Shown piece by piece: positions 3,737 to 30,396 of a stretch of DNA of 31,633 nt. The stretch spans positions 1 through 31,633 of IMG/VR virus record IMGVR_UViG_3300026551_000006; one strand, written 5' to 3'. Numbering within the stretch: position 1 is the first letter of the stretch; the number at the start of each line of letters is the position of its first letter. Source of the DNA: a virus. The notes beneath the pieces are model-generated. The model did not search any database, was not told the DNA's origin, and saw only the letters and a list, made by a program, of their open reading frames with translations. The translations under genes and the position numbers were made by a program.

Positions 3737-4195
3737 TTATTGACCGAGTTGCGAGACGTGGTGGATGTGGTTGGCTCTCATGTAGGTGGCGATCTGGGTA
3801 ACTTGCGCGTCGCTCGCCTCGTTATAGCCCAAATCGTGCAGGTACATTTTGATCATCGGCTCGCTATCGTAGCGGTCACCGATTTCAGGGACTGGATCGC
3901 CGTCAACCAGTTGATCAACCGCAAGAGTGCGTTGCGTTTCCGCGTTGCGGTCCCCGTTGGCCTTTAACCAATCGTTATACATTGATCTCATATGTGCATC
4001 ACGCGGAATCAGCGCATTTTGGGCCAGTGTTTTAAACCAGGTCTCCAAAGCCGCTTGATCACGAGCTCTCGCAAAAGCCAAAGTACGCGCATCCTCTTCG
4101 GCATGGGTAGAATGGATCATGATTTGCGGATCATCCGCTTTGACGCTTCCCGCGAGTGCGTAGGCACCCAAGGCCAGTAAAAAAAATCGTTTCAT
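3737..4195 (-). CDS. Secreted or periplasmic protein with signal peptide, function unknown
   Basis: The 152-residue product begins MKRFFLLALGAYALAGSVKA, a typical Sec signal peptide with likely cleavage after VKA. The mature part is polar and helix-rich, with SMYNDWLKANGDRNAE, one Cys-free fold and a C-terminal HIHHVSQLGQ. I chose the second of two adjacent ATGs because AGGAG then lies at better spacing. The gene precedes two micro-membrane genes, so an envelope-directed function such as inhibiting superinfection or aiding lysis is a reasonable guess. No muralytic motif is visible. A repeated motif CTCGGTCGTATT lies 11 bases before the start. Confidence 0.7.
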   Translation of the reverse strand: MKRFFLLALGAYALAGSVKADDPQIMIHSTHAEEDARTLAFARARDQAALETWFKTLAQNALIPRDAHMRSMYNDWLKANGDRNAETQRTLAVDQLVDGDPVPEIGDRYDSEPMIKMYLHDLGYNEASDAQVTQIATYMRANHIHHVSQLGQ

Positions 4196-4204
4196 CATGC
4201 TCCT

Positions 4205-4378
4205 CTAATACGACCGAGTAGCGGTAAAATTAAGCCGATTCCGGCCGGCCATCGAGCGGATCGGCAGCTCGGGCTTTAGCCCCGCGTGCTTGAGCCGGTT
4301 GTAGTGCGCGTCACAGAACCCACGCGCTTTGGCCGGACGCAGGCAATCGGCAATGCTGCAGCGTTGCCACCGGCTCAT
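4205..4378 (-). CDS. 57-residue zinc-finger protein
   Basis: The protein has the pattern RCSIADC, then KARGFCDAHYNRLKHAG. This C-x4-C-x8-C-x2-H arrangement is typical of the small treble-clef domain often found next to phage HNH or homing endonucleases. Here it stands alone with a basic tail. Its ATG overlaps the upstream TGA (ATGA at 4375-4378), so translation is probably coupled. DNA or RNA binding is likely, and no catalytic residues are visible. Confidence 0.65.
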   Translation of the reverse strand: MSRWQRCSIADCLRPAKARGFCDAHYNRLKHAGLKPELPIRSMAGRNRLNFTATRSY

Positions 4379-4524
4379 TCGGCCGCATGGCGCAAATCGC
4401 TATGATAAGGACACTGGGGATCGATCAAAGCCCGCATCCAATAGCCATCATCGCAAGTACACCATTGTGGCCGGGCGACCTTGCCTTGCTGCCGTAAAAT
4501 ATGTTCTGGAGTTTCGTCGCTCAT
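4375..4524 (-). CDS. 49-residue cysteine/histidine protein, function unknown
   Basis: The product begins MSDETPEHILRQQGKV and contains WCTCDDGYWMRALIDPQCPYH, a C-x-C...C-x2-H arrangement that could bind one zinc ion. The ATG at 4524 overlaps the upstream stop (ATGA), and its own stop overlaps the next ATG. This supports the short start over the longer open frame that reaches upstream to 4674. No family is recognised. Confidence 0.6.
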   Translation of the reverse strand: MSDETPEHILRQQGKVARPQWCTCDDGYWMRALIDPQCPYHSDLRHAAE

Positions 4525-4700
4525 GCCCGTTCCTTGAGCGGCCGCCCGTCTCCGTCCCGCGCGACCTCCGGCCCACGCAGTAACCGGCGGGTTGCCTTGA
4601 GCAGTTGGTACGTCACGTACAAGAGCCAGCCGAAATAGACCAGCAGGCCGCCTACCACGATGGAAAGCGCGCACACGATAATAAAGACGACATCTTTCAA
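4521..4700 (-). CDS. Small single-pass membrane protein
   Basis: The frame contains one strong membrane segment (FIIVCALSIVVGGLLVYFGW) followed by a basic, cytoplasm-like tail (LLKATRRLLRG). There is no ATG in the plausible region. TTG at 4700, just after the previous gene ends at 4705, gives 59 residues, with AAAGGA directly in front. The frame stays open upstream to 4817, but that part overlaps the preceding gene. The stop overlaps the next ATG, which supports the frame being real. Function unknown. Confidence 0.5.
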   Translation of the reverse strand: MKDVVFIIVCALSIVVGGLLVYFGWLLYVTYQLLKATRRLLRGPEVARDGDGRPLKERA

Positions 4701-4704
4701 TCCT

Positions 4705-5340
4705 TTAAGCGGCCGGCAACAACGCAAGCGCCTCCTGGTGGGATTTTTCCAACGCGCGTAGTGCCACAGGGCCTTCCTCTGCGGCGATCGCGCGAACTGT
4801 AACCAGGCCGCCCTCAATGGATTCGAGGATCTCCTGCCGGTTAGCGGATCGACCTTCCCGGAACCAGAAGGTTTGCTCAGGCGGCCCGAGGCGAAAGAGG
4901 AAGCCGCCCATCTGATCGGGCACCGGCCAGTAGCTTTTGGTCACCCATAGAAGGGTCACGCCGGGGTTGCGATCGAGGCCGAGCCCATCGGGCTCACTGG
5001 TGTCTTCTGGCAGGTCCCGCGTGCGGCGGTGCATCTTTGGCATGGCGAGAAACGGGCACGCCTTGGCGGCAAAGATCGCGCAGTCCTTGTGGCTCGGGGG
5101 TTCGGAGCTGATCCGGTTGAGCGCGCACATCGGCCCGATCACGAAGACTAGGTACTGGCCGAGCTGCTGGCCACAGATCCAGCATTTTCTTTTATGGTAA
5201 GCTTCTTCGCGTTTACCGGGCCCGATGCAGCGAAAATCCGGTTTCCCGTCGACCCAAGCAACAAACCACGGCACGGGCCGATCGTGCTTGTCAATTGGTA
5301 ACTGGGAGATGCGGCCGGGGATCTCAATAACGTCTTTCAT
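4705..5340 (-). CDS. Conserved hypothetical phage protein with putative zinc-binding cysteines
   Basis: This 211-residue cytoplasmic protein has a cysteine-rich centre: KRKCWICGQQLG, IGPMCALNRIS, PPSHKDCAIF and KACPFLAMP. The CxxC, Cys, His-x2-Cys and Cys spacing suggests one or two structural zinc sites. I recall proteins of this type with the same core in phages and bacteria, but with no known function. It heads the small-gene train and is followed by the membrane-protein frame after 4 bases. Confidence 0.6.
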   Translation of the reverse strand: MKDVIEIPGRISQLPIDKHDRPVPWFVAWVDGKPDFRCIGPGKREEAYHKRKCWICGQQLGQYLVFVIGPMCALNRISSEPPSHKDCAIFAAKACPFLAMPKMHRRTRDLPEDTSEPDGLGLDRNPGVTLLWVTKSYWPVPDQMGGFLFRLGPPEQTFWFREGRSANRQEILESIEGGLVTVRAIAAEEGPVALRALEKSHQEALALLPAA

Positions 5341-7642: not shown

Positions 7643-8695
7643 TTAACGAAATTCAAATTCGTCAGTCACCGAGTACCAGACGTTATGCCCCAGCTTTAAG
7701 AGCTGACCATCAATGCGGTCGCGCACAAATCCCCGCGGAAACATCGCGCTTAGCTGTTGATCGACGTGATTAAGGAGGAAAGGAATCTCGTGCCCTGGAT
7801 GGTTCATCTGGCAATCAGCCGCCATAATCCGGAGCATGACCTCGAGATGATCCTTGTGGACTTCAAACCCGAACGGTTTATGGCCTGGGCGGAAAACGCC
7901 GCGAACAATATTAGGTGCCAAATCGTTCATAAACTCGCTGGTGGCATGCGGTAAACGCGCTTTCGCCGAGGATTCGAAAGCACTTCGGTAATAAGTCCGT
8001 AAATCTTCAGAAACGAACAGTTCACCTGGCGCGAGTGCATTGCCCAAAGCTTCTAGACGTTTGGTCCGGCTTAAATCCTTAATGATTCCGATCACCTGCC
8101 GCTTAGCCAAAAAAGCTTTGTAAAGCCTGACTGCCTCATCAAGGGCGGCAGACCATTCATGAATGATTGGACCATCGAGAAAGACGTAGGGTTCGTTGAT
8201 TTTTTCTAATGCGTGGACGGTTTCCCAGTAACGTAAGACGGCGGTGGGCTTAATTGAATCAACCAGTTCTTCTTGCCGTAGGATGTATTCCTTGGTTCCT
8301 GCGGTTTGCTCCAGCTCTAGCAAGGTTGACCAGACGACCAGGTACTGGTCAATTTTGCGGCGGTAGGAAACTGAACCTACGCCACAGCAGAAAGCTTGGA
8401 CGGCGCCAAAATGCTGCATATCCAAGACCGTGCGACCGTCAACAGCAGCCACCTCTCCCGCCAATAGTTCCGGCGCTGAACTTTGAACACCAAACTGCAT
8501 TTGATGCAACCGGTCTGGATACGCCTCGATATGCTGCCGAGCACGTTTTGCCGCGTCCATGGCAGCTGGACTAGTTAACCCGGTGATGATTGAATCAGTG
8601 ACTAAACCTGGATTAACTAGAAAATCGTTATATTGATTTTCGCGACTGTTCCGAATCAGGAGTTCGAATGAGGAAGGCTGCTTTGTTGCACTCAC
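7643..8695 (-). CDS. nurA: NurA-like nuclease, partner of HerA
   Basis: This 350-residue protein fits the NurA 5'-3' nuclease family. An acidic motif VAAVDGRT has Asp at 86, a second FLDGP has Asp at 174, then VIGIIKDLSRTKRL near 201-214, and a C-terminal EIPFLLNHVDQQL region matches the family's late conserved helix. The GTG start overlaps the HerA stop (GTGA at 8692-8695), so the two are translationally coupled, as in HerA-NurA operons. The pair resects DNA ends in archaea, and related bacterial pairs act against phages. Overall sequence similarity is remote, so the call rests on motifs plus the HerA neighbour. Confidence 0.75.
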   Translation of the reverse strand: MSATKQPSSFELLIRNSRENQYNDFLVNPGLVTDSIITGLTSPAAMDAAKRARQHIEAYPDRLHQMQFGVQSSAPELLAGEVAAVDGRTVLDMQHFGAVQAFCCGVGSVSYRRKIDQYLVVWSTLLELEQTAGTKEYILRQEELVDSIKPTAVLRYWETVHALEKINEPYVFLDGPIIHEWSAALDEAVRLYKAFLAKRQVIGIIKDLSRTKRLEALGNALAPGELFVSEDLRTYYRSAFESSAKARLPHATSEFMNDLAPNIVRGVFRPGHKPFGFEVHKDHLEVMLRIMAADCQMNHPGHEIPFLLNHVDQQLSAMFPRGFVRDRIDGQLLKLGHNVWYSVTDEFEFR

Positions 8696-10317
8696 AGAAA
8701 TTTTCCTTTGTTATCGATCCGTTCGAGCTCGCAGGGCGAGGGCGCAAACGCGACCGAAAGAATCGCTGGAGAATCGTCCATCTTTACCAAGCCTTTTCCG
8801 CGGGCTAACCGAGTCGACCGCTGGGCAAACTCTTCGCCCATGGCCTGCGTCGCGTCCTTGGCCACTCGCAGATTGTTCTGTTTCATCACGATATGGGTGC
8901 AAAGATTCTGCATCACATCGGGAGGTAGCTGGCTGGCATTCTGAAGCGAGAGCACAAGCGCATGATTACGGCTACGCCCTTCACGCACTGCGGTGTTGAA
9001 TGCGCCGATTAACGGTCCGGCAAAATCGCTTTTATTATCAAAAATCCGGCTGGCTTCATCGATAATCTGGGTAATCCCGATAGCGTCATCATTTTGGCAA
9101 TACTCGAACCCGGATCGAAGAAAATATGCCACAATCATGGCGTGATCACCGGGGTTACGGATCGATTCCAGGCTCACATGCACAAGCCGTTCCGGCGTAA
9201 CGACGTTCCTAAAATCGAATTCCTCAACTAGCCGACCACTGCCTCCTCCAAATGCACCAGGCTCGAGATCCACCCCAACCGCGTCAAGCCAGGTTAACCG
9301 GTTCCGGCGTTTACGGACTTTACTGATTACTGAATCGACCGTCCGCCCGTCCGTGCTGCCGCCATTTGGCTGGTTTTTGCCGCCTCTCCGGCCTTTTTCC
9401 ACTGTGGCTAAGACGTCATCAATCGTGTAATGATTCCAATTCTCCGCGAGCATCCGGCGTTGTAATTCGGAAGCAGCTGCTTCAAAGGCTTCAAACTGCA
9501 GTTTCTCGCGCCGATCCTGGAAAAAGAGGCTAGCCAGTTCATCCGGCTCAAAGCTTGAGGCCCAGAATCCAACGACTTTGTGAACCCGCTTCTTATTGCA
9601 CTTCCCATAGAATCCGATCGAGTAAACATTGTTAAACCCGTGTGGAACCTTCTTTAGATGGCTGAACGTGTTCCATATTTTAGTTACCGCCCGGTCGCTA
9701 TTAGACTCTGCGATCAACCGGAAATCCGGTTTGCTGTCATACAGGAAAACGCAATCCCCGTTAGCAAGCGCTTGATCCGCAACGTTCATAATCACGTTGC
9801 TTTTACCTGAATTGGTCGCTCCGCTAATCATGACGTGAGAGTCGAGCATCAGTTCAGTCAAACAGAATGGTGTGTTAGCGGCGTTGGTGTTTATCCCGAT
9901 AGCGTTAGAGCCGCAGATTGACCGTTCCATATAGACTGGAATCCGAAGATATCTGACAACATCTTCTGCAGTCATCGTATTGACTTGAGCGCCTCCAGCC
10001 CATCGCGTTTCGATCTCGCCCATCTCGCCATCAGTGATTTCGCCGCGGACTTCGACTTTAATGATATGGGCAATTTCACCTGGCAGAATCCCAGGATTCT
10101 GCGCCATCAGTTGTGCCAAGTTAAGCAAAGCTGGTGAAGTCGGGTCCTGGTTGGAACGATGAATCGGAATCGGTGGTTGGGTCAATTGCCCAACCCAATG
10201 CGTTAGTTTGTTCGCAATCCATACGTAATCACCGGACTTGAAATGTTCGGATTCCTCACATTGAGCCAGGATAAAATTTGGATCAGCATCGATTGTTTCA
10301 ATTAAAGTAAAAGCCAT
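8692..10317 (-). CDS. herA: HerA-like hexameric DNA translocase/helicase
   Basis: This 541-residue ATPase belongs to the HerA/FtsK superfamily. The first 90 residues resemble the HAS-barrel. Walker A is GATNSGKS at 166-173, and the Walker B region IIDEAS at 418-423 is followed by REGRSRNHALVLSLQNASQL, the sensor-like part of HerA proteins. HerA forms a ring that pumps DNA into NurA. The NurA-like gene is directly downstream with a GTGA overlap. The alternative, a packaging ATPase, is less likely because there is no terminase nuclease domain and the partner is NurA. The gene begins 12 bases after the PD-(D/E)XK nuclease gene ends. Confidence 0.85.
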   Translation of the reverse strand: MAFTLIETIDADPNFILAQCEESEHFKSGDYVWIANKLTHWVGQLTQPPIPIHRSNQDPTSPALLNLAQLMAQNPGILPGEIAHIIKVEVRGEITDGEMGEIETRWAGGAQVNTMTAEDVVRYLRIPVYMERSICGSNAIGINTNAANTPFCLTELMLDSHVMISGATNSGKSNVIMNVADQALANGDCVFLYDSKPDFRLIAESNSDRAVTKIWNTFSHLKKVPHGFNNVYSIGFYGKCNKKRVHKVVGFWASSFEPDELASLFFQDRREKLQFEAFEAAASELQRRMLAENWNHYTIDDVLATVEKGRRGGKNQPNGGSTDGRTVDSVISKVRKRRNRLTWLDAVGVDLEPGAFGGGSGRLVEEFDFRNVVTPERLVHVSLESIRNPGDHAMIVAYFLRSGFEYCQNDDAIGITQIIDEASRIFDNKSDFAGPLIGAFNTAVREGRSRNHALVLSLQNASQLPPDVMQNLCTHIVMKQNNLRVAKDATQAMGEEFAQRSTRLARGKGLVKMDDSPAILSVAFAPSPCELERIDNKGKFL

Positions 10318-13199: not shown

Positions 13200-13352
13200 T
13201 TAAGGACTTTTCCCGTCAGAGTTGACCAGTCGCCGAATATATTGTGATACGGTCAGATCGAGGCTTTCAGCCCGTTGCCGGATCAGCGGTTTAAGCTCTT
13301 CCGGAACAGTAATTGAAAGTTTCTGCACGGGAACTTTGTGCTTTGTTTTCAT
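13200..13352 (-). CDS. Ribbon-helix-helix repressor, 50 residues
   Basis: The protein has the Arc/CopG layout. A strand, VQKLSITVP, is followed by helix EELKPLIRQRAESL, a turn at DLT, and helix VSQYIRRLVNSD. Such dimers bind short palindromes. Operator-like sites lie on both sides of the gene (13179-13193 and 13353-13368), so autoregulation and control of both the recombination operon and the divergent coiled-coil gene are likely. The divergent starts are only 24 bases apart. Confidence 0.8.
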   Translation of the reverse strand: MKTKHKVPVQKLSITVPEELKPLIRQRAESLDLTVSQYIRRLVNSDGKSP

Positions 13353-13368
13353 CGTACTGGGTCGTATT
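13353..13368. promoter_or_regulatory. Operator-like site between divergent RHH and coiled-coil genes
   Basis: CGTACTGGGTCGTATT fills most of the 24-base gap between two divergent start codons. Its CTGGGTCGTATT part matches the motif found at 13177-13188 and 4207-4218. A protein bound here would block translation-initiation regions or promoters of both genes. Confidence 0.5.
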
Positions 13369-13376
13369 GTCATGTT

Positions 13377-13748
13377 GTGACCGTTATTGAAGCATTGAAT
13401 AAATTGAAGCTCGCCGGCTTACCCGATAAACAGGCGGAAGCCATTCTTGAAACTTTCGAGGAGCGCGACCGTTCATGGTTCGAAAGCCACTTTGAAAGGC
13501 TGCGAACAGAAATGGAAAAGATGCGACGCGAATTGCAGACGGAGATCGAAAAGGTGCGACGCGAATTGCAGACGGAGATCGAAAAGGTGCGACGCGAATT
13601 GCAAGCCGAGATCGAAAAAATGCGACGCGAATTGCAAGCCGAAATTGAAAAGGTGCGTACCGAAATCAAGGACGCCAAATTCGAGATGATTCGCTGGATC
13701 GTTGGCACCGTAATCGTTGGGACTCTCATTAGCCATTTCTGGAAATGA
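13377..13748 (+). CDS. Coiled-coil protein with 11-residue repeats and C-terminal membrane anchor
   Basis: The 123-residue product starts at GTG with TVIEALNKLKLAGLPDKQAE, the opening of the DUF1640/CCDC90-like family. It then has four tandem hendecads of the type (M/V)RRELQ(T/A)EIEK and ends with a membrane helix IVGTVIVGTLISHFW. The GTG start is preferred because the homologous part begins there, and the frame open to 13338 overlaps the divergent RHH gene. Hendecad repeats favour a right-handed or straight helical bundle. A membrane-tethered rod of this kind has no known phage role, and exclusion or DNA tethering are guesses. Confidence 0.75.
   Translation: MTVIEALNKLKLAGLPDKQAEAILETFEERDRSWFESHFERLRTEMEKMRRELQTEIEKVRRELQTEIEKVRRELQAEIEKMRRELQAEIEKVRTEIKDAKFEMIRWIVGTVIVGTLISHFWK
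13521..13652 (+). repeat. Four tandem 33-bp repeats coding for hendecads
   Basis: Units start at 13521, 13554, 13587 and 13620, each beginning (A/G)TGCGACGCGAATTGCA. They differ at a few positions only, which indicates recent expansion. Each unit encodes eleven residues of the coiled coil. Confidence 0.9.
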
Positions 13749-13987
13749 CTACCAAAAAAAACGCTGGCCGCACCTACGTCTCCCTCTCCTTCAGTTGCCC
13801 GCCCGAGATGGAAACCGCCATCAACCGGCGTTGTGTGGAGCTCGGCCTCGATAGCCGGAGCGATTATCTGCGCCGGCTCTTTGAGCGCGACCTGATCGCA
13901 GTCGGCTTGTACAATCCTCGCGACATCGGGCGCGATGCACCGCCACGGATCCGGCGTGGTCGCCAGCCAAAAGCCAAAAAGAAATAA
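13745..13987 (+). CDS. Small RHH-like DNA-binding protein with basic tail
   Basis: The 80-residue protein begins MTTKKNAGRTYVSLSFSCPP and continues EMETAINRRCVELGLDSRSD, YLRRLFERDL. This strand, helix, turn, helix order resembles a ribbon-helix-helix domain. The C-terminus is highly basic (RIRRGRQPKAKKK). It overlaps the coiled-coil gene by ATGA, so the two are co-translated, much like a regulator and membrane-partner pair. Confidence 0.65.
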   Translation: MTTKKNAGRTYVSLSFSCPPEMETAINRRCVELGLDSRSDYLRRLFERDLIAVGLYNPRDIGRDAPPRIRRGRQPKAKKK

Positions 13988-14028
13988 CTGAGTGTTCATG
14001 GGACTGGGTTGCGGTATGGTCTCCATTT

Positions 14029-14241
14029 TTAATTTCCTTGGTTTTCCCACCAGATGAGAAAGGTTTTGCGTTTGAACCGCCAACCTCCACGTTTGCCGGC
14101 GACCTGGAACGCACCGGGAATCTGACCCGTGCGCGCCAACCGACTGATTGTCCGCGGATGAAACCTCATGATCTGAGCAAGATCAGCAATCGTCAATGGC
14201 GCCGACTTTTCGCTGAAAGGAGGAAGAAACAATTCGCTCAT
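14029..14241 (-). CDS. Excisionase-like HTH protein, paralogue of the one beside the integrase
   Basis: The core LTIADLAQIMRFHPRTISRL plus GKRGGWRFKRKTFLIWWENQG is a MerR/excisionase-type winged HTH (HTH_17). It is clearly paralogous to the gene at 16564-16782, sharing HPRTISRLARTGQ and KRGGWRFKR. The start at MSELF (14241) is chosen by alignment with that paralogue, and an upstream in-frame ATG adds three residues. As a second Xis-like protein it could control early transcription or excision. No adjacent integrase is present on this side. Confidence 0.75.
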   Translation of the reverse strand: MSELFLPPFSEKSAPLTIADLAQIMRFHPRTISRLARTGQIPGAFQVAGKRGGWRFKRKTFLIWWENQGN

Positions 14242-22421: not shown

Positions 22422-25400
22422 TCATCGGGTGTACGGGTAATTGATGTAAACGGCATCGAGAGCAATGTGAAAATTGGTCGTCGAAGCGGAATTTCGATAG
22501 AAGAAAACAATCGGCACCATCGGCTGACTTAAAGGCGCAACCCCGGTTGCCGAGCCAATCTGAGTACCATTAAGCCAAGCCGTCACGTTGCCTGCGGTAT
22601 CAACTTTAAGCTCCCACCAACCATAACCGTTCGGAGTCGGGGTTCCGGCGGTGCAGTTAACGTAACTGATCGTCGTGCCTGGGTTGCCGTAACCGTTATT
22701 GAAATACCCGATCCGCAGAATTCCACTGTTGTTATCCGGCGAATACTCCAGAAATAGAGCCTCATACCAGTTTGCAACTCCGGTCGGGTGTCCAGCGGTT
22801 CCTTGCAGCCAGAGACCCGCCCGAAGGACATAGCCAATCCCGGTCGGTGGTAAGGATGCCTCTTCTAAAGCCAGCCGAAACGCAATATCACAGGTACCAT
22901 AGCCAAGTAAGATTGAACCGTTAGCTGTCCCGCTATTCTTGCCACGAGCAACCGAATATCCGGAATTGTTAGCGGCCGCTACTCCGGTCGAAAGCTCAAT
23001 AATGCCCTGAGAACGTCGAGTAGCATCAAGCCCGTAGGTAGAGCTAAAAGTAATAGCGCCGCCGCCCCCGCCGCCTTGGCCCTCCCATTCCTGAGGCAGC
23101 GTGGTGCCGCCTTGATACGCAGGGTTCCACAGAAAATCGTCATAAATAAAAATACCGTTGCGCGGATCAAAGAGCGTCGCTGTTCCGCCACCACCGCCAC
23201 CGCCGGTCGGTCCGGTCGGCCCGGTCGCTCCGATTGGCCCAGGCGACCCAGCCGGTGACACCTGCGCGCCCGAGCTGATCACCGTTCCTGCCGCAGCGTT
23301 GCCGATCGTTCCGCTATTGGTCAAGACGGCATGAGTCGAGTCGGTGACAACCGACACACTGAGATAACCGGCTGTGGGAATAAAAAGGTTCTGCCCCTGC
23401 GCCATCCATGCCGTTGACGCCACCGTGACGGTGACCGTCGAGCCGCTGGTCGGCATCGTGAAGTTGGCCGTGGTAGTCGTAAACGCGCTCGTGCCAGCTT
23501 GCCCGTTTAGCCCCGATGGAACCACCCCGCCACCGCTGGCGACCGTCGCGCCAGGTGCCGCGTTGCCGCTATAGCCCAGATTCGTCACGACCGCGTGATT
23601 AATGTCCGTGACAGACGCAACCGTGTAATAGCCGCCACCTAGGATAAAAACAGCTTGCCCGACCACCATCCAGGCCGTGGTGCCAACATTAATCGAGACC
23701 GTGGCAGCCGCGGCAGGCTGGGTAAAACTCGCGCTTAAAGTCGTAAAAGCGTTTAAACCCGCGCCACCGGCACCTGCCGGCCCGATCAAGCCACCAGGCG
23801 ATACGTGGACGCCGGAGGCAATCGTCGCGCCTACGGTGGCGTTTCCCGGATAATTGAGAGCCGTTGCGCTAAAGACTGTCGGACTTAATATGCTCGCGAC
23901 CTGGAAATAGCCGGCCGAAGTTATGTAAATGACCTGACCGGTACTGAGCCAAGCCGTGTTGCCGATCGTAACATTCGCGCTTGCGGCCACCGCGGGCATC
24001 GTGAAAGAGGCACTGGTCGCATCATAGGCGTTCGCCCCCGGGGTACCGGTCGACGATGGGCCGGCGATCCCGCCCGGTGTAACCATCGCCCCCGAGCTAA
24101 TCACCGTCCCAGGGGCCGCGTTGGTCAGTGGATACGCTAGATTGGTCAGCACCGCGTGCGTCGCATCGGTGATCGATGAAACCGAATAGTAACCAGCCCC
24201 GGCGATAAAGACCACGTACCCGGCGCCGCCTAGCCACGCTGTTGACGCTAAGCTTACTGCAACCGTCGTCAACGCGGCCGGTACCGTGAAGTTGGCGCTC
24301 GTGGTGCTAAAAGCGTTCTGGCCCGGAGATCCGCCGCCGCCGGTGCCGCCGAGCGACGTCCAAGGCAAAATCGCCGCACCGCTCGTGATCGTGGTGCCGC
24401 TGCCGGCATTCCAGGGATCGCCCAGGTTCTGGATCGTGACATGAGTTCCGTCCGGCACCACCGTCACTGAGTAATAACCGGCAATCGGGATCCGTACCCA
24501 TTGACCAACCACGAAAGCACTCGAGCTCGAGACCGTTACGTTAACCGTGCCACCGGAGGCCGGAGTCACGAAATTGGCCGCGACGCTCGCCGCGATTGAA
24601 GCAAATTGCAGATTCCCGGCGCTGGAAAGATTGATCGTGGTCCCGTCGACCGGGATAGCTGCCGCAATTAATTTAGCCGAAGAATTCAGGCCAGCGTACC
24701 CGCTCGCCACCCCTTTGCGCGTAAGCAGCTCCAAGAGCGACGCATCCGGATAAGTCTGGATGACATTCGTTGCGGCGATCCCGACGTTCGTACCGCTAGG
24801 AATCACGGTTGCCGGCGCAGCGTTGCCAGCGCCACCCGTGTTCTGGGCAACAAAATCGGTCGCGTTCGTGATCGAAACGACCTGATACGCACCGGCACCC
24901 GCCCCAATCGCCAGATTTAGCCCAGTAGAGAGCCAGCCGGTGTTATTGATCCGGACCGTGACATTCGCGTTGACCGCCGGGGTCGTGAACGCGGCAATCG
25001 TCGTATCAAGGATCGTCTCGCTTAAGAGTGAACGCTCAACCGTAAAGGCGATATCTAAAGTGCGCGCGATCGTGCCGAAGCTGGTCTGGTACCGAATCTC
25101 GCCAACGCAAGTGATTGACGCTTGAGCCCCGATCGCCGCGGCCATCTGAACCGTATTAAAGTTCGGGTACCCGACGTAGGTCACTCTGGATTGTGCATCG
25201 AGTATTCGCGAGAAACTGCTGTATGCGACCAGCGCATTTGGCCCGCTACCAAACACCCCAAACCGAATCCCCGGAGAGGTGCCCAGATCATAGTTAACGT
25301 TCCCCTTGGCGAAATAAATCGAGAGCGTCGGCGTATCCTGATTCTTGACGGTGATCGGGGGTGCAGCCTGTTTCGAGCCGAACGATTGAACGGCCTGCTG

Positions 25401-25427
25401 CAAATCTAAATCTATGATTATTACCAT
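22422..25427 (-). CDS. Giant repeat-containing tail fibre with lectin-like C-terminus
   Basis: The 1001-residue protein begins with a BppU-like N-terminal domain (to about residue 145). It then has six imperfect repeats of about 75-95 residues, each with a pattern like TAWM..GQ..FI..GYY.V.SVTD..HAVLTN and ending in ASG..V.PGG..G. A short collagen-like Gly-Pro-Thr segment leads to a C-terminal beta-rich domain (YDDFLWNP...; WWELKVDTAGNVTAWLNGTQ) resembling concanavalin/laminin-G-like lectins. I infer a long trimeric host-recognition fibre. Repeat number may vary between relatives. Confidence 0.8.
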   Translation of the reverse strand: MVIIIDLDLQQAVQSFGSKQAAPPITVKNQDTPTLSIYFAKGNVNYDLGTSPGIRFGVFGSGPNALVAYSSFSRILDAQSRVTYVGYPNFNTVQMAAAIGAQASITCVGEIRYQTSFGTIARTLDIAFTVERSLLSETILDTTIAAFTTPAVNANVTVRINNTGWLSTGLNLAIGAGAGAYQVVSITNATDFVAQNTGGAGNAAPATVIPSGTNVGIAATNVIQTYPDASLLELLTRKGVASGYAGLNSSAKLIAAAIPVDGTTINLSSAGNLQFASIAASVAANFVTPASGGTVNVTVSSSSAFVVGQWVRIPIAGYYSVTVVPDGTHVTIQNLGDPWNAGSGTTITSGAAILPWTSLGGTGGGGSPGQNAFSTTSANFTVPAALTTVAVSLASTAWLGGAGYVVFIAGAGYYSVSSITDATHAVLTNLAYPLTNAAPGTVISSGAMVTPGGIAGPSSTGTPGANAYDATSASFTMPAVAASANVTIGNTAWLSTGQVIYITSAGYFQVASILSPTVFSATALNYPGNATVGATIASGVHVSPGGLIGPAGAGGAGLNAFTTLSASFTQPAAAATVSINVGTTAWMVVGQAVFILGGGYYTVASVTDINHAVVTNLGYSGNAAPGATVASGGGVVPSGLNGQAGTSAFTTTTANFTMPTSGSTVTVTVASTAWMAQGQNLFIPTAGYLSVSVVTDSTHAVLTNSGTIGNAAAGTVISSGAQVSPAGSPGPIGATGPTGPTGGGGGGGTATLFDPRNGIFIYDDFLWNPAYQGGTTLPQEWEGQGGGGGGAITFSSTYGLDATRRSQGIIELSTGVAAANNSGYSVARGKNSGTANGSILLGYGTCDIAFRLALEEASLPPTGIGYVLRAGLWLQGTAGHPTGVANWYEALFLEYSPDNNSGILRIGYFNNGYGNPGTTISYVNCTAGTPTPNGYGWWELKVDTAGNVTAWLNGTQIGSATGVAPLSQPMVPIVFFYRNSASTTNFHIALDAVYINYPYTR
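23208..24983 (-). repeat. Six degenerate domain repeats in the giant fibre (approximate limits)
   Basis: At protein level, units recur roughly every 90 residues. The last four are contiguous and start with (N/S)AF or NAY followed by (T/S)xx(A/S)xFTxP. The first two are more diverged and separated by a linker. Nucleotide identity is low, so these are old duplications rather than recent slippage. Confidence 0.7.
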
Positions 25428-27465: not shown

Positions 27466-28959
27466 TTACCCAGCGCCAGCTAATAAATCGATAAAACGAC
27501 TAACGGCCTTAGACAGGTCATCGGTCGGATTAGCTAATGCCTTTACCCCATCAAAAAACTTTTGTACTATGGTATCAAGAGAGACTTTGAATTGGTCTCC
27601 CATGCCTTTAATCGAATTGGTATACTCGGCAAAACCTGGTGGCGCGGTCACGGCCTGCGGCCCTACTCTGGCAAACTCCGCCTTGGCCCCGGCAATACCT
27701 GCCTCCCTTCCCGTTTTCTGCCTTTCGATGGCCGCTCTTCGATCCTCATCGGCCTCACGGAGATCGCGCATTTCATCCTGGTGCCTTTCCTTGTACGCCT
27801 GGATCACGTCCCGGTAACCAAGCCAACCGCCCTGTTCAGCCGGACGTAACGCCTGTTGCACTCCGATTGGCCCTAGCGTTTTAGTCAGTTCGGCAACGCC
27901 CTGCTTGTACTCATCAAGCTGACTCTTGAGCAGGTTCCTCTGTTCCTGGCTCGCGCCGGCCGGGATCAGCGCTCCCTCCCGACCTCTGGCAGCCTGTTGA
28001 AATTGTTGAGTCAAAAGTTCCTCACCTGTCCGGGTACCGCCGGCATATTTTCGATCCCATTCGGCCTGCGCGTTGGCTAACTTCTCCGTAATGGATAGTT
28101 GCCGGTCCATTGTGCGCTCCCGTTTTTCGCCCATCCGTTCGGTCGCGCGCATTACCGCATCCATGCTTTTCTCGGCCGTGGCCTGTTCGGCTTCGAAATT
28201 CTTGAGCTCCCTAGTCATATCGACAATGGTCTGGACCAATGTCCGTCCAGCCGCAGCCTGTTCACCCATCATGTGCGTCACTAGACGCATATCCTGAAGC
28301 GAGCCCTCGCCCTCAGACACACGGCCAAGAGCCTGCGCGAGTGTATTGGCGTCAACGCCAAGCACATTAGACCATTTACCTAAATCTTTTACGGCCATAC
28401 CGGCCTGATCCGCACTAGCACCGTAATCTTGCAAAGTCTCTATTACCTGAACCGCTTTTCCCTCCGGTATCAGTGCCTCCTTGGTATCCTTTTGTAGCTG
28501 CTTAAATCTGGCACCTAAATGATCCAGCCCATCGGCCATCGCGTTAAACTGGATCTGGGCTTGTTGAACCTTAGAAATTTCATCAAAGGCGTATTTGACG
28601 CCTTGAATGGCGAGCCGGATCATCTCGAAAATCACTATGCGCGTTGCCATGCGCTCGGCCATGCGCCCAAAATCTATCCCGGCCCGTGCGGCCTTGTTTC
28701 CTGCCTCCTCCAGTTCAAGCCCATAATTTTTCATGGCAGTGCCGGCCTGGGCCGCCGCAGCTGCATTGGCCTTGGCTGCAACCGTTGCTTTCTCTAGAAG
28801 CGTAGCTGGCGCTCCGCCAAAAGCCGCTGGCAACGGCGTCAGAACACCGCTCCCAGGCGCACCCGGCACAAGGCTCTGTATCTCTCTCTTGACCTTAGTG
28901 ACCGCCGCATCAAGCTCAGTGGTATCAGCCCCAAAAGTGATGTTGATATCATCGGCCAC
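27466..28959 (-). CDS. Tail tape measure protein
   Basis: The 497-residue protein starts GTG-ADDINITFGADTTELDAA, the common opening of tape measure proteins (an alpha/beta start before long helices). It continues with QVIETLQDYGASADQAGMAV and TLAQALGRVSEGEGSLQDMR, typical of phage tape-measure N-terminal domains. The long charged helical second half agrees. At about 0.15 nm per residue the tail would be near 75 nm, short for a siphophage. The start overlaps the end of the frameshifted chaperone frame. Confidence 0.8.
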   Translation of the reverse strand: MADDINITFGADTTELDAAVTKVKREIQSLVPGAPGSGVLTPLPAAFGGAPATLLEKATVAAKANAAAAAQAGTAMKNYGLELEEAGNKAARAGIDFGRMAERMATRIVIFEMIRLAIQGVKYAFDEISKVQQAQIQFNAMADGLDHLGARFKQLQKDTKEALIPEGKAVQVIETLQDYGASADQAGMAVKDLGKWSNVLGVDANTLAQALGRVSEGEGSLQDMRLVTHMMGEQAAAGRTLVQTIVDMTRELKNFEAEQATAEKSMDAVMRATERMGEKRERTMDRQLSITEKLANAQAEWDRKYAGGTRTGEELLTQQFQQAARGREGALIPAGASQEQRNLLKSQLDEYKQGVAELTKTLGPIGVQQALRPAEQGGWLGYRDVIQAYKERHQDEMRDLREADEDRRAAIERQKTGREAGIAGAKAEFARVGPQAVTAPPGFAEYTNSIKGMGDQFKVSLDTIVQKFFDGVKALANPTDDLSKAVSRFIDLLAGAG

Positions 28960-29547
28960 GGTACGCCCTCGCTTTCTTGAGCCGCTCTAAGAGTTGCGGC
29001 GAACTTTTATCAATCACAAACTCGCACCCCTGCATCTGTAGATAAACCAACTGAAACTGGTAGGCGACAGCAGCCGGCAAAATCCACAAGACTTCCTGCA
29101 GCGTCATTCCAGTTAATGGCATGATGCACGCGGCAACCTCTATAGCCGAGGCTGCCCTCCAACGTTTTTTGGCGCGTCCCCGTCCTGGCCGCCGCGCGCC
29201 CGCGCCTTGGTACTGGCTGCCAATTCATCATTAAGCCGTTTGTAGGCGTCCAGCAGCGGCTGGTAATTGACGATCGAGTATCCTTGAGCCTCGGCCCATT
29301 CAAAAGCGCGCAGCTGGGCTTGTGCTACGTCCTCGTGGACCTTTAACGCCTCCAATGGCTTGAGCGTACAGACCCAGACCGTCATCACGGCGTTAAAGAA
29401 GTTGCTGCTCGAACTCCGGCACAGATCAATTGCAATCACTTGGCGCAACAGGCTGAAGGGTTGCAACTCAATGTCGCCAACCTGTTTCGGTGTCAGCGCC
29501 GAGACCAGCGCCTGTTCGGTTGTCATGTCAATCTCTTCGACGTTCAT
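28949..29547 (-). CDS. Tail assembly chaperone, -1 frameshift fusion (gpGT-like)
   Basis: A -1 shift at A_AAA_AAC (29164-29170) joins the upstream chaperone frame to a second frame running to TGA at 28949-28951. The fusion has about 199 residues. The extension reads RWRAASAIEVAACIMPLTGM and later EVLWILPAAVAYQFQLVYLQ, with a basic C-terminus. In lambda, gpG and gpGT made this way hold the tape measure protein during tail assembly. The tape measure gene is directly downstream and overlaps the fusion's end, as expected. Confidence 0.85.
29132..29172 (-). promoter_or_regulatory. -1 programmed ribosomal frameshift signal
   Basis: On the minus strand the in-frame heptamer A AAA AAC (29170-29164) is followed by a 7-base spacer and a stem GGCAGCCTC/GAGGTTGCC (29156-29148 with 29140-29132). 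The stem has nine pairs including one G.U and a 7-base loop. The zero-frame stop TAG begins at the end of the loop. All parts match known bacterial and phage -1 signals. Confidence 0.85.
29140..29547 (-). CDS. Tail assembly chaperone, unshifted product (gpG-like)
   Basis: The 135-residue zero-frame protein (MNVEEIDMTTEQALVSALTP, LQPFSLLRQVIAIDLCRSSS) lies immediately before the tape measure gene, in the position of lambda gpG. Its C-terminus is polar and disordered (STKARARGGQDGDAPKNVGG) and contains the slippery codons. The start overlaps the upstream gene by ATGA. Identification depends on gene order and the frameshift signal, since these chaperones diverge quickly. Confidence 0.8.
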   Translation of the reverse strand: MNVEEIDMTTEQALVSALTPKQVGDIELQPFSLLRQVIAIDLCRSSSSNFFNAVMTVWVCTLKPLEALKVHEDVAQAQLRAFEWAEAQGYSIVNYQPLLDAYKRLNDELAASTKARARGGQDGDAPKNVGGQPRL

Positions 29548-30005
29548 AGTTTACCTAAAAATTCGGCCTGCAATTCCGGACTTGACCGTTTGCCGAGGGT
29601 AACCGATTCACCGGCACGATCACCTTTGATAGTCTCCCATTTCGCATCCGGCCGTTTATCCCTCCAAAGCACTATCAGTTCGCGTAAATGTTCGTGCGCC
29701 GCCAAAATGGCCGTTCGCGCGCCATTCGCCATTAAAGAGCTGATTAAATCGCCGCCTTGGATTCGCCAAGCGCTCAAGATTTCGTCCGGCAAGCTGACTA
29801 GTTCAAAATTAAAACTAATCCGGGTCTGCGGCGGTGATCGGCGCGGATCTTGCAAATTTTCAAGGTACGCGTCCAGCGAAGGATAAATATCATTCCATTC
29901 CAACGGCAGGTGTTGCCGCAATTTGCCGCCAAAAATTAAGCAGAGCACCGCAAACTTCATGTCAACGGTGCTGAAACCCCGCTCGTGATATACAGCGCTC
30001 TCCAT
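29544..30005 (-). CDS. 153-residue tail-region hypothetical protein
   Basis: The protein begins MESAVYHERGFSTVDMKFAV and is mixed helix and strand, with SLPDEILSAWRIQGGDLISS and a basic C-terminal part. It is between the tail tube gene and the chaperone pair, coupled to the latter by ATGA. ATG at 30005 is preferred over the in-frame TTG at 30008. A minor tail or chaperone-related role is inferred from position only. Confidence 0.6.
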   Translation of the reverse strand: MESAVYHERGFSTVDMKFAVLCLIFGGKLRQHLPLEWNDIYPSLDAYLENLQDPRRSPPQTRISFNFELVSLPDEILSAWRIQGGDLISSLMANGARTAILAAHEHLRELIVLWRDKRPDAKWETIKGDRAGESVTLGKRSSPELQAEFLGKL

Positions 30006-30012
30006 CAACGAT

Positions 30013-30396
30013 CTAAGCTGCCACTAACGGATAATAGGTACCCGTAATCCGCACACTCATATTCTTTGCCCGGCCCTTGCTGTGCGCGACGCCTTTACAA
30101 ATAAATATTCCAAGTGCACCAACCCCGTACTGCTCCTTGACCAGATTGGTCAGGGTCATCGATAGACCCAACACAGCGGTGAGCGCGCCAGTCATTTCAC
30201 CGGTTAAAGTGACCTCGCCGCGCGGGTTATGGGTAACGACCTCGATTACTTCGCCGACCCCGTTTTTCTGTTCAAAGGTGTCGGTCTGATCGTTTTGTTC
30301 GTAGCTTTCGACCGAGATCCCAGTCTCATCCGTACTCCCAAATGTATAAGTGGAAACAGCGGGAAATTTTACTACATAGGTGGTTGGTGCTGGCAT
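30013..30396 (-). CDS. Major tail (tube) protein candidate
   Basis: The 127-residue, beta-rich protein (TYVVKFPAVSTYTFGSTDET; NPRGEVTLTGEMTGALTAVL; VRITGTYYPLVA) has the size and strand pattern of a single-domain tail tube subunit. AGGA lies eight bases before the ATG. It lies between the tail-terminator-like and chaperone genes, the usual place for the tube gene. The sequence itself is too diverged to name a family. Confidence 0.65.
   Translation of the reverse strand: MPAPTTYVVKFPAVSTYTFGSTDETGISVESYEQNDQTDTFEQKNGVGEVIEVVTHNPRGEVTLTGEMTGALTAVLGLSMTLTNLVKEQYGVGALGIFICKGVAHSKGRAKNMSVRITGTYYPLVAA

Follow-up and report, generated by a model that had tools for sequence, protein, structure and literature searches.

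A putative tail assembly chaperone gene of a soil phage is very probably subject to programmed −1 ribosomal frameshifting of the lambda G/GT type, so that a single gene makes both gpG and gpGT. The analysed stretch of DNA, hereafter the window, is an IMG/VR virus record of 31.6 kb, in which the region under study is read from the minus strand. As judged from the sequences compared, the window provides a well-supported example of a known mechanism, and its new element is a chaperone family missing from Pfam and PHROGs.

The minus strand carries, in this order, a probable tail tube gene, a 154-aa ORF, the chaperone gene G and, directly downstream of G, a tape-measure-like gene of 497 aa (Table 1). 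The latter shows a weak match to a PHROG tape measure profile (0.0053), and counterpart genes downstream of T, the extension of G in the −1 frame, match tape measure families in the relatives L009 (phrog_167, 2.1e-11) and L024 (phrog_991, 1.5e-6). The 127-aa product is probably the tail tube protein, an assignment by position only; profile searches gave no family for it, and its AF2 model reached a pLDDT of 37. In L012, another relative, two similar tail-tube-like genes are arranged in tandem (3920-4354 and 4361-4714). The 154-aa ORF between the putative tail tube gene and G belongs to no family in PHROGs or Pfam and has counterparts of 157-220 aa in relatives.

Table 1. Minus-strand features of the chaperone region, in positions of the window
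Feature	Coordinates	Strand	Description and basis
Probable tail tube protein	30013..30396	-	127 aa; position only
ORF preceding G	29544..30008	-	154 aa; overlaps G start (ATGA)
G, putative tail assembly chaperone (gpG analogue)	29140..29547	-	135 aa, TAG stop; ORF, 15-sequence family and position
Slippery heptamer A AAA AAC	29164..29170	-	Zero-frame phase; heptamer in all 15 family members
T extension, −1 frame	28949..29164	-	71 aa (RWRAASAIEV...ARAYRGR); predicted to be translated only as GT fusion
Spacer GTTGGAG	29157..29163	-	7 nt; read from sequence
9-bp hairpin, loop GGCTATA	29132..29156	-	Possible stimulator, clade-specific; folding and comparison
Tape-measure-like gene	27466..28959	-	497 aa, GTG start overlaps T stop; weak PHROG tape-measure match

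Several observations concern other parts of the window. On the minus strand, a HerA/FtsK-like ATPase (8692-10317) adjoins a NurA-like protein (7643-8695), both with weak, below-cutoff Pfam matches, and the region 7643-10317 possibly represents a HerA-NurA pair in a phage. A 1001-aa protein encoded at 22422-25427 on the same strand comprises several similar repeats, matches phrog_31840 (1.8e-50) in six stretches and is probably a tail fibre or spike. Furthermore, an ORF of coiled-coil repeats (RRELQTEIEKV) on the plus strand (13338-13748) overlaps a long minus-strand open frame (13370-14083); the real gene there may lie on either strand.

Close to the 3' end of G, the heptamer AAAAAAC is present in zero-frame phase (CCA AAA AAC) and, just as a preliminary description of this DNA had claimed, precedes a 9-bp stem-loop by 7 bases. 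The hairpin is composed of the 5' arm GGCAGCCTC (29156-29148), a 7-nt loop (29147-29141) and the 3' arm GAGGTTGCC (29140-29132), with one G-U among its nine pairs, and its distance from the heptamer falls within the 5-8 nt expected of a hairpin-stimulated signal; the 46-nt stretch that follows the heptamer folds at -21.6 kcal/mol (z -2.7). The zero-frame TAG (29142-29140) had been described as beginning at the end of the loop, which applies to its first two bases, the third being the first base of the 3' arm. Upstream of the heptamer, inspection by eye revealed no evident strong Shine-Dalgarno-like stimulator. An open −1 frame spans 29224 to 28949: starting with CGT at 29164, the first codon after a −1 slip, 71 codons (RWRAASAIEVAACIMPLTGM...) lead to a TGA ending at 28949, which yields a predicted GT length of 199 aa. 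The earlier claim that the shifted frame runs exactly to the tape measure start needs a small correction, as the frame does reach the GTG at 28959 and then overlaps it shortly, with the T stop 11 nt inside the gene. Among the 12 loci of the family for which a start of the next long ORF was found, T overlaps it by 0-19 nt.

Among random 16-codon gene ends drawn with the same codon usage, 2.4% contain a strong heptamer and 0.23% contain AAAAAAC or CCCAAAC; with the amino acids held fixed, AAAAAAC arises in 7.5%. Taken alone, the window sequence is moderately unlikely by chance and therefore no more than suggestive of a frameshift site; conservation among relatives decides the case.

Repeated IMG/VR searches yielded a family of 15 distinct G sequences, the window's own included. 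The other 14, all from uncultivated phages, share 39-90% identity with the window's G, and their T sequences share 35-92% with its T. No isolate phage among 50,697 phage records contained a relative of the full frameshifted protein, and none was found for G or GT in bacterial and archaeal genome contigs. An in-frame slippery heptamer is located 25-31 nt before the G stop in each of the 15 members, comprising A AAA AAC in ten, C CCA AAC in four (L013, L019, L020 and L026) and A AAA AAA in one (L004). In L004, the latter lies around position 4378 within a run of eight As; an additional codon precedes the hairpin there, and both frames are kept. A tree of G+T implies at least one switch between A AAA AAC and C CCA AAC, most simply two; few of its branches are well supported, and one switch is the minimum that these force. 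The −1 frame is likewise open in all members, in L003 followed only to the contig end. Hence, the preliminary description, which had staked its proposal on relatives keeping the heptamer and the open −1 frame, was not refuted by this comparison.

Conservation extends to the coding capacity of the shifted frame. The T alignment contains nine invariant positions (W2, R3, A4, W27, L29, P30, A32, Q36 and G46), and right after the heptamer the −1 frame of nearly all members reads CGN TGG (A/C)GG GCN GC (R W R A A/S), where changes at the free bases are synonymous in the −1 frame and alter the amino acid read in the zero frame (V, D, A, S or G). Of the codon pairs that differ within the first five codons downstream of the heptamer, the −1 frame has 81% synonymous, the zero frame 29% and the +1 frame 6%, and over the five codons upstream of it the −1 share is 5%; these shares are descriptive, carry no significance test and count pairs that are non-independent events. 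The step from 5% to 81% places the onset of −1 frame constraint at the heptamer, where a fusion protein would need it to start. Together with the T alignment, this pattern of substitution marks the −1 frame as coding sequence that extends G.

The point at which constraint begins also bears on whether T could be a separate small gene of 57 aa, translated from an ATG at 29122 by re-initiation or from its own ribosome-binding site, without any frameshift. The window does offer this ATG at T codon 15 and a GAGG upstream of it (29140-29137), but the GAGG lies 14 nt from the ATG and is paired within the hairpin. Moreover, a counterpart of the ATG is missing from L006, L008, L009, L013, L017, L019, L020, L026, L023 and L024, the last two of which feature no ATG, GTG or TTG in the first 28 T codons, and the T frame is constrained from the first codon after the heptamer, ahead of the first ATG. 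Because the start codon is unconserved and constraint begins before it, an independent start of T is rejected as highly improbable.

Equally improbable is transcriptional slippage, whereby a slip on the A run during transcription would shift the frame of the mRNA itself and ribosomes would then read it normally. Runs of A are indeed present, with A6 in the window and A8 in L004; six As are short for transcriptional slippage. What leads to its rejection is that C CCA AAC, with an A run of only three, replaces the longer run at the same place in four relatives. Least probable of all is that the frame break reflects faulty sequencing or gene decay and that the −1 frame is open by chance. Open frames of 73 codons do occur at 24% of window positions, but an assembly error cannot bring about one and the same break, at one and the same place, in 15 distinct sequences, which come from many metagenome contigs and conserve both products; no relative with G and T fused in one frame was seen among them.

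Programmed −1 frameshifting on the ribosome is thus the reading to be placed among known systems. In long-tailed phages, the gene preceding the tape measure gene commonly undergoes −1 shifting at a low level, the conservation of which was reported by Xu, Hendrix and Duda in 2004, and lambda produces gpG and gpGT at about 30:1, according to PMC5009743, which itself cites the 2004 study. The window resembles lambda in the position of the gene just before the tape measure gene, in a −1 slip near its 3' end, in a predicted short and long product, and in a C-terminal extension that ends at the tape measure gene; it differs in that no sequence relation is detectable at the thresholds used and in that its heptamer ends in AAAC. 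The tape measure chaperone gp93/gp94 of Caulobacter phage phiCbK uses the very same heptamer, AAAAAAC, and Colossus, a relative of phiCbK, has GGGAAAC, so that the first triplet varies between relatives as it does in the window's family (PMC3556154); the passage describing these sites mentions no hairpin, and unlike these, the frameshifted protein of the window is without a relative among the phage records searched. A third comparison is provided by a gene cluster found by GeneTack, in which two HK97-like tail chaperone genes shift at 6-7% (PMC3711429); the frame transition likewise falls within a phage tail chaperone gene, but the sequences are not recognisable relatives of the window's.

The sequence elements, their conservation and the constraint on the −1 frame allow a course of translation in vivo to be proposed. 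The majority of ribosomes would read G through to its TAG and release gpG of 135 aa. A minority, at a rate that may differ from that of lambda, would slip by −1 when the P and A sites are occupied by AAA AAC, pair anew with AAA AAA and read on in the −1 frame to produce gpGT, ending at the start of the tape measure gene. As for the roles of the two proteins, gpG would coat the tape measure protein, whereas the T part of gpGT would recruit the tail tube subunit, by analogy with lambda. In the window's clade, a hairpin of 9-10 bp, 7 nt downstream, probably lifts the shift rate, which A AAA AAC by itself would keep low.

This hairpin is nevertheless restricted to five of the 15 members, i.e., the window, L003, L004, L005 and L007, which constitute one clade. 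Homologous pair cells are formed to 98% in this clade, against at most 56% in slid controls, and to 57% in the other ten members, against 22-52% in the controls; the best simple hairpin amounts to -12 to -17 kcal/mol in the clade versus 0 to -7 in the other ten. In these ten, the RWRAA codons dictate the outer G-C pairs regardless. An extra pair, found only in L005 and L007 and differing in type between them (T-A and G-C), lends slight support to selection on the hairpin. The hairpin may have been acquired by one clade as a stimulator, or it may simply follow from codon choice. A structure conserved across the family, as a hairpin-stimulated signal requires, does not emerge from the alignment, so that the hairpin was rejected as a universal element and the stem, which the preliminary description had proposed to compare in relatives, did not prove a conserved part of the signal. 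The same description had called the signal unusually complete, which overrates it: in E. coli, A_AAA_AAC is reported to rank with the poor motifs (PMC4066793), and PMC3556154 already describes this heptamer in the tail chaperone gene of phiCbK.

Inefficiency of A AAA AAC in E. coli and the absence of the hairpin from two thirds of the family both count against the frameshift reading, as does the lack of a match at threshold to named chaperone families and of a solved structure matching the fold. Searches of G and T against Pfam, PHROGs and NCBIfam returned no match at threshold, the best match to a chaperone being that of one family member to phrog_2624 'tail assembly chaperone', which is marginal (E = 0.029). 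The AlphaFold (AF2) model of G reached a pLDDT of 77; its predicted fold matched no solved structure in the PDB and only A0A6J5S158, an uncharacterized protein of an uncultured phage (TM 0.64). A sequence or fold match is, however, unnecessary for the class, since known chaperone families share the frameshift despite low similarity, as stated in PMC5009743. Membership of the window in this class is supported by architecture and conservation as read from the genomes.

For uncultivated phages whose tail chaperone escapes profile libraries, these results provide the correct annotation with two products, including an extension of 71 aa that could go missing from the annotation or be replaced there by a spurious 57-aa gene. 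More tentatively, and with the balance leaning somewhat against it, a family that neither Pfam nor PHROGs covers and that has no recognisable relatives among isolates may keep a weak -AAAC site almost throughout, swap the first triplet (AAA/CCC) without losing slipperiness, and have gained a strong stimulatory hairpin in one clade. If this holds true, related phages would set the gpG:gpGT ratio by different means and would form a natural series for ratio tuning. Relatives with and without the hairpin offer a ready comparison of how a stimulator may tune the G:GT ratio.
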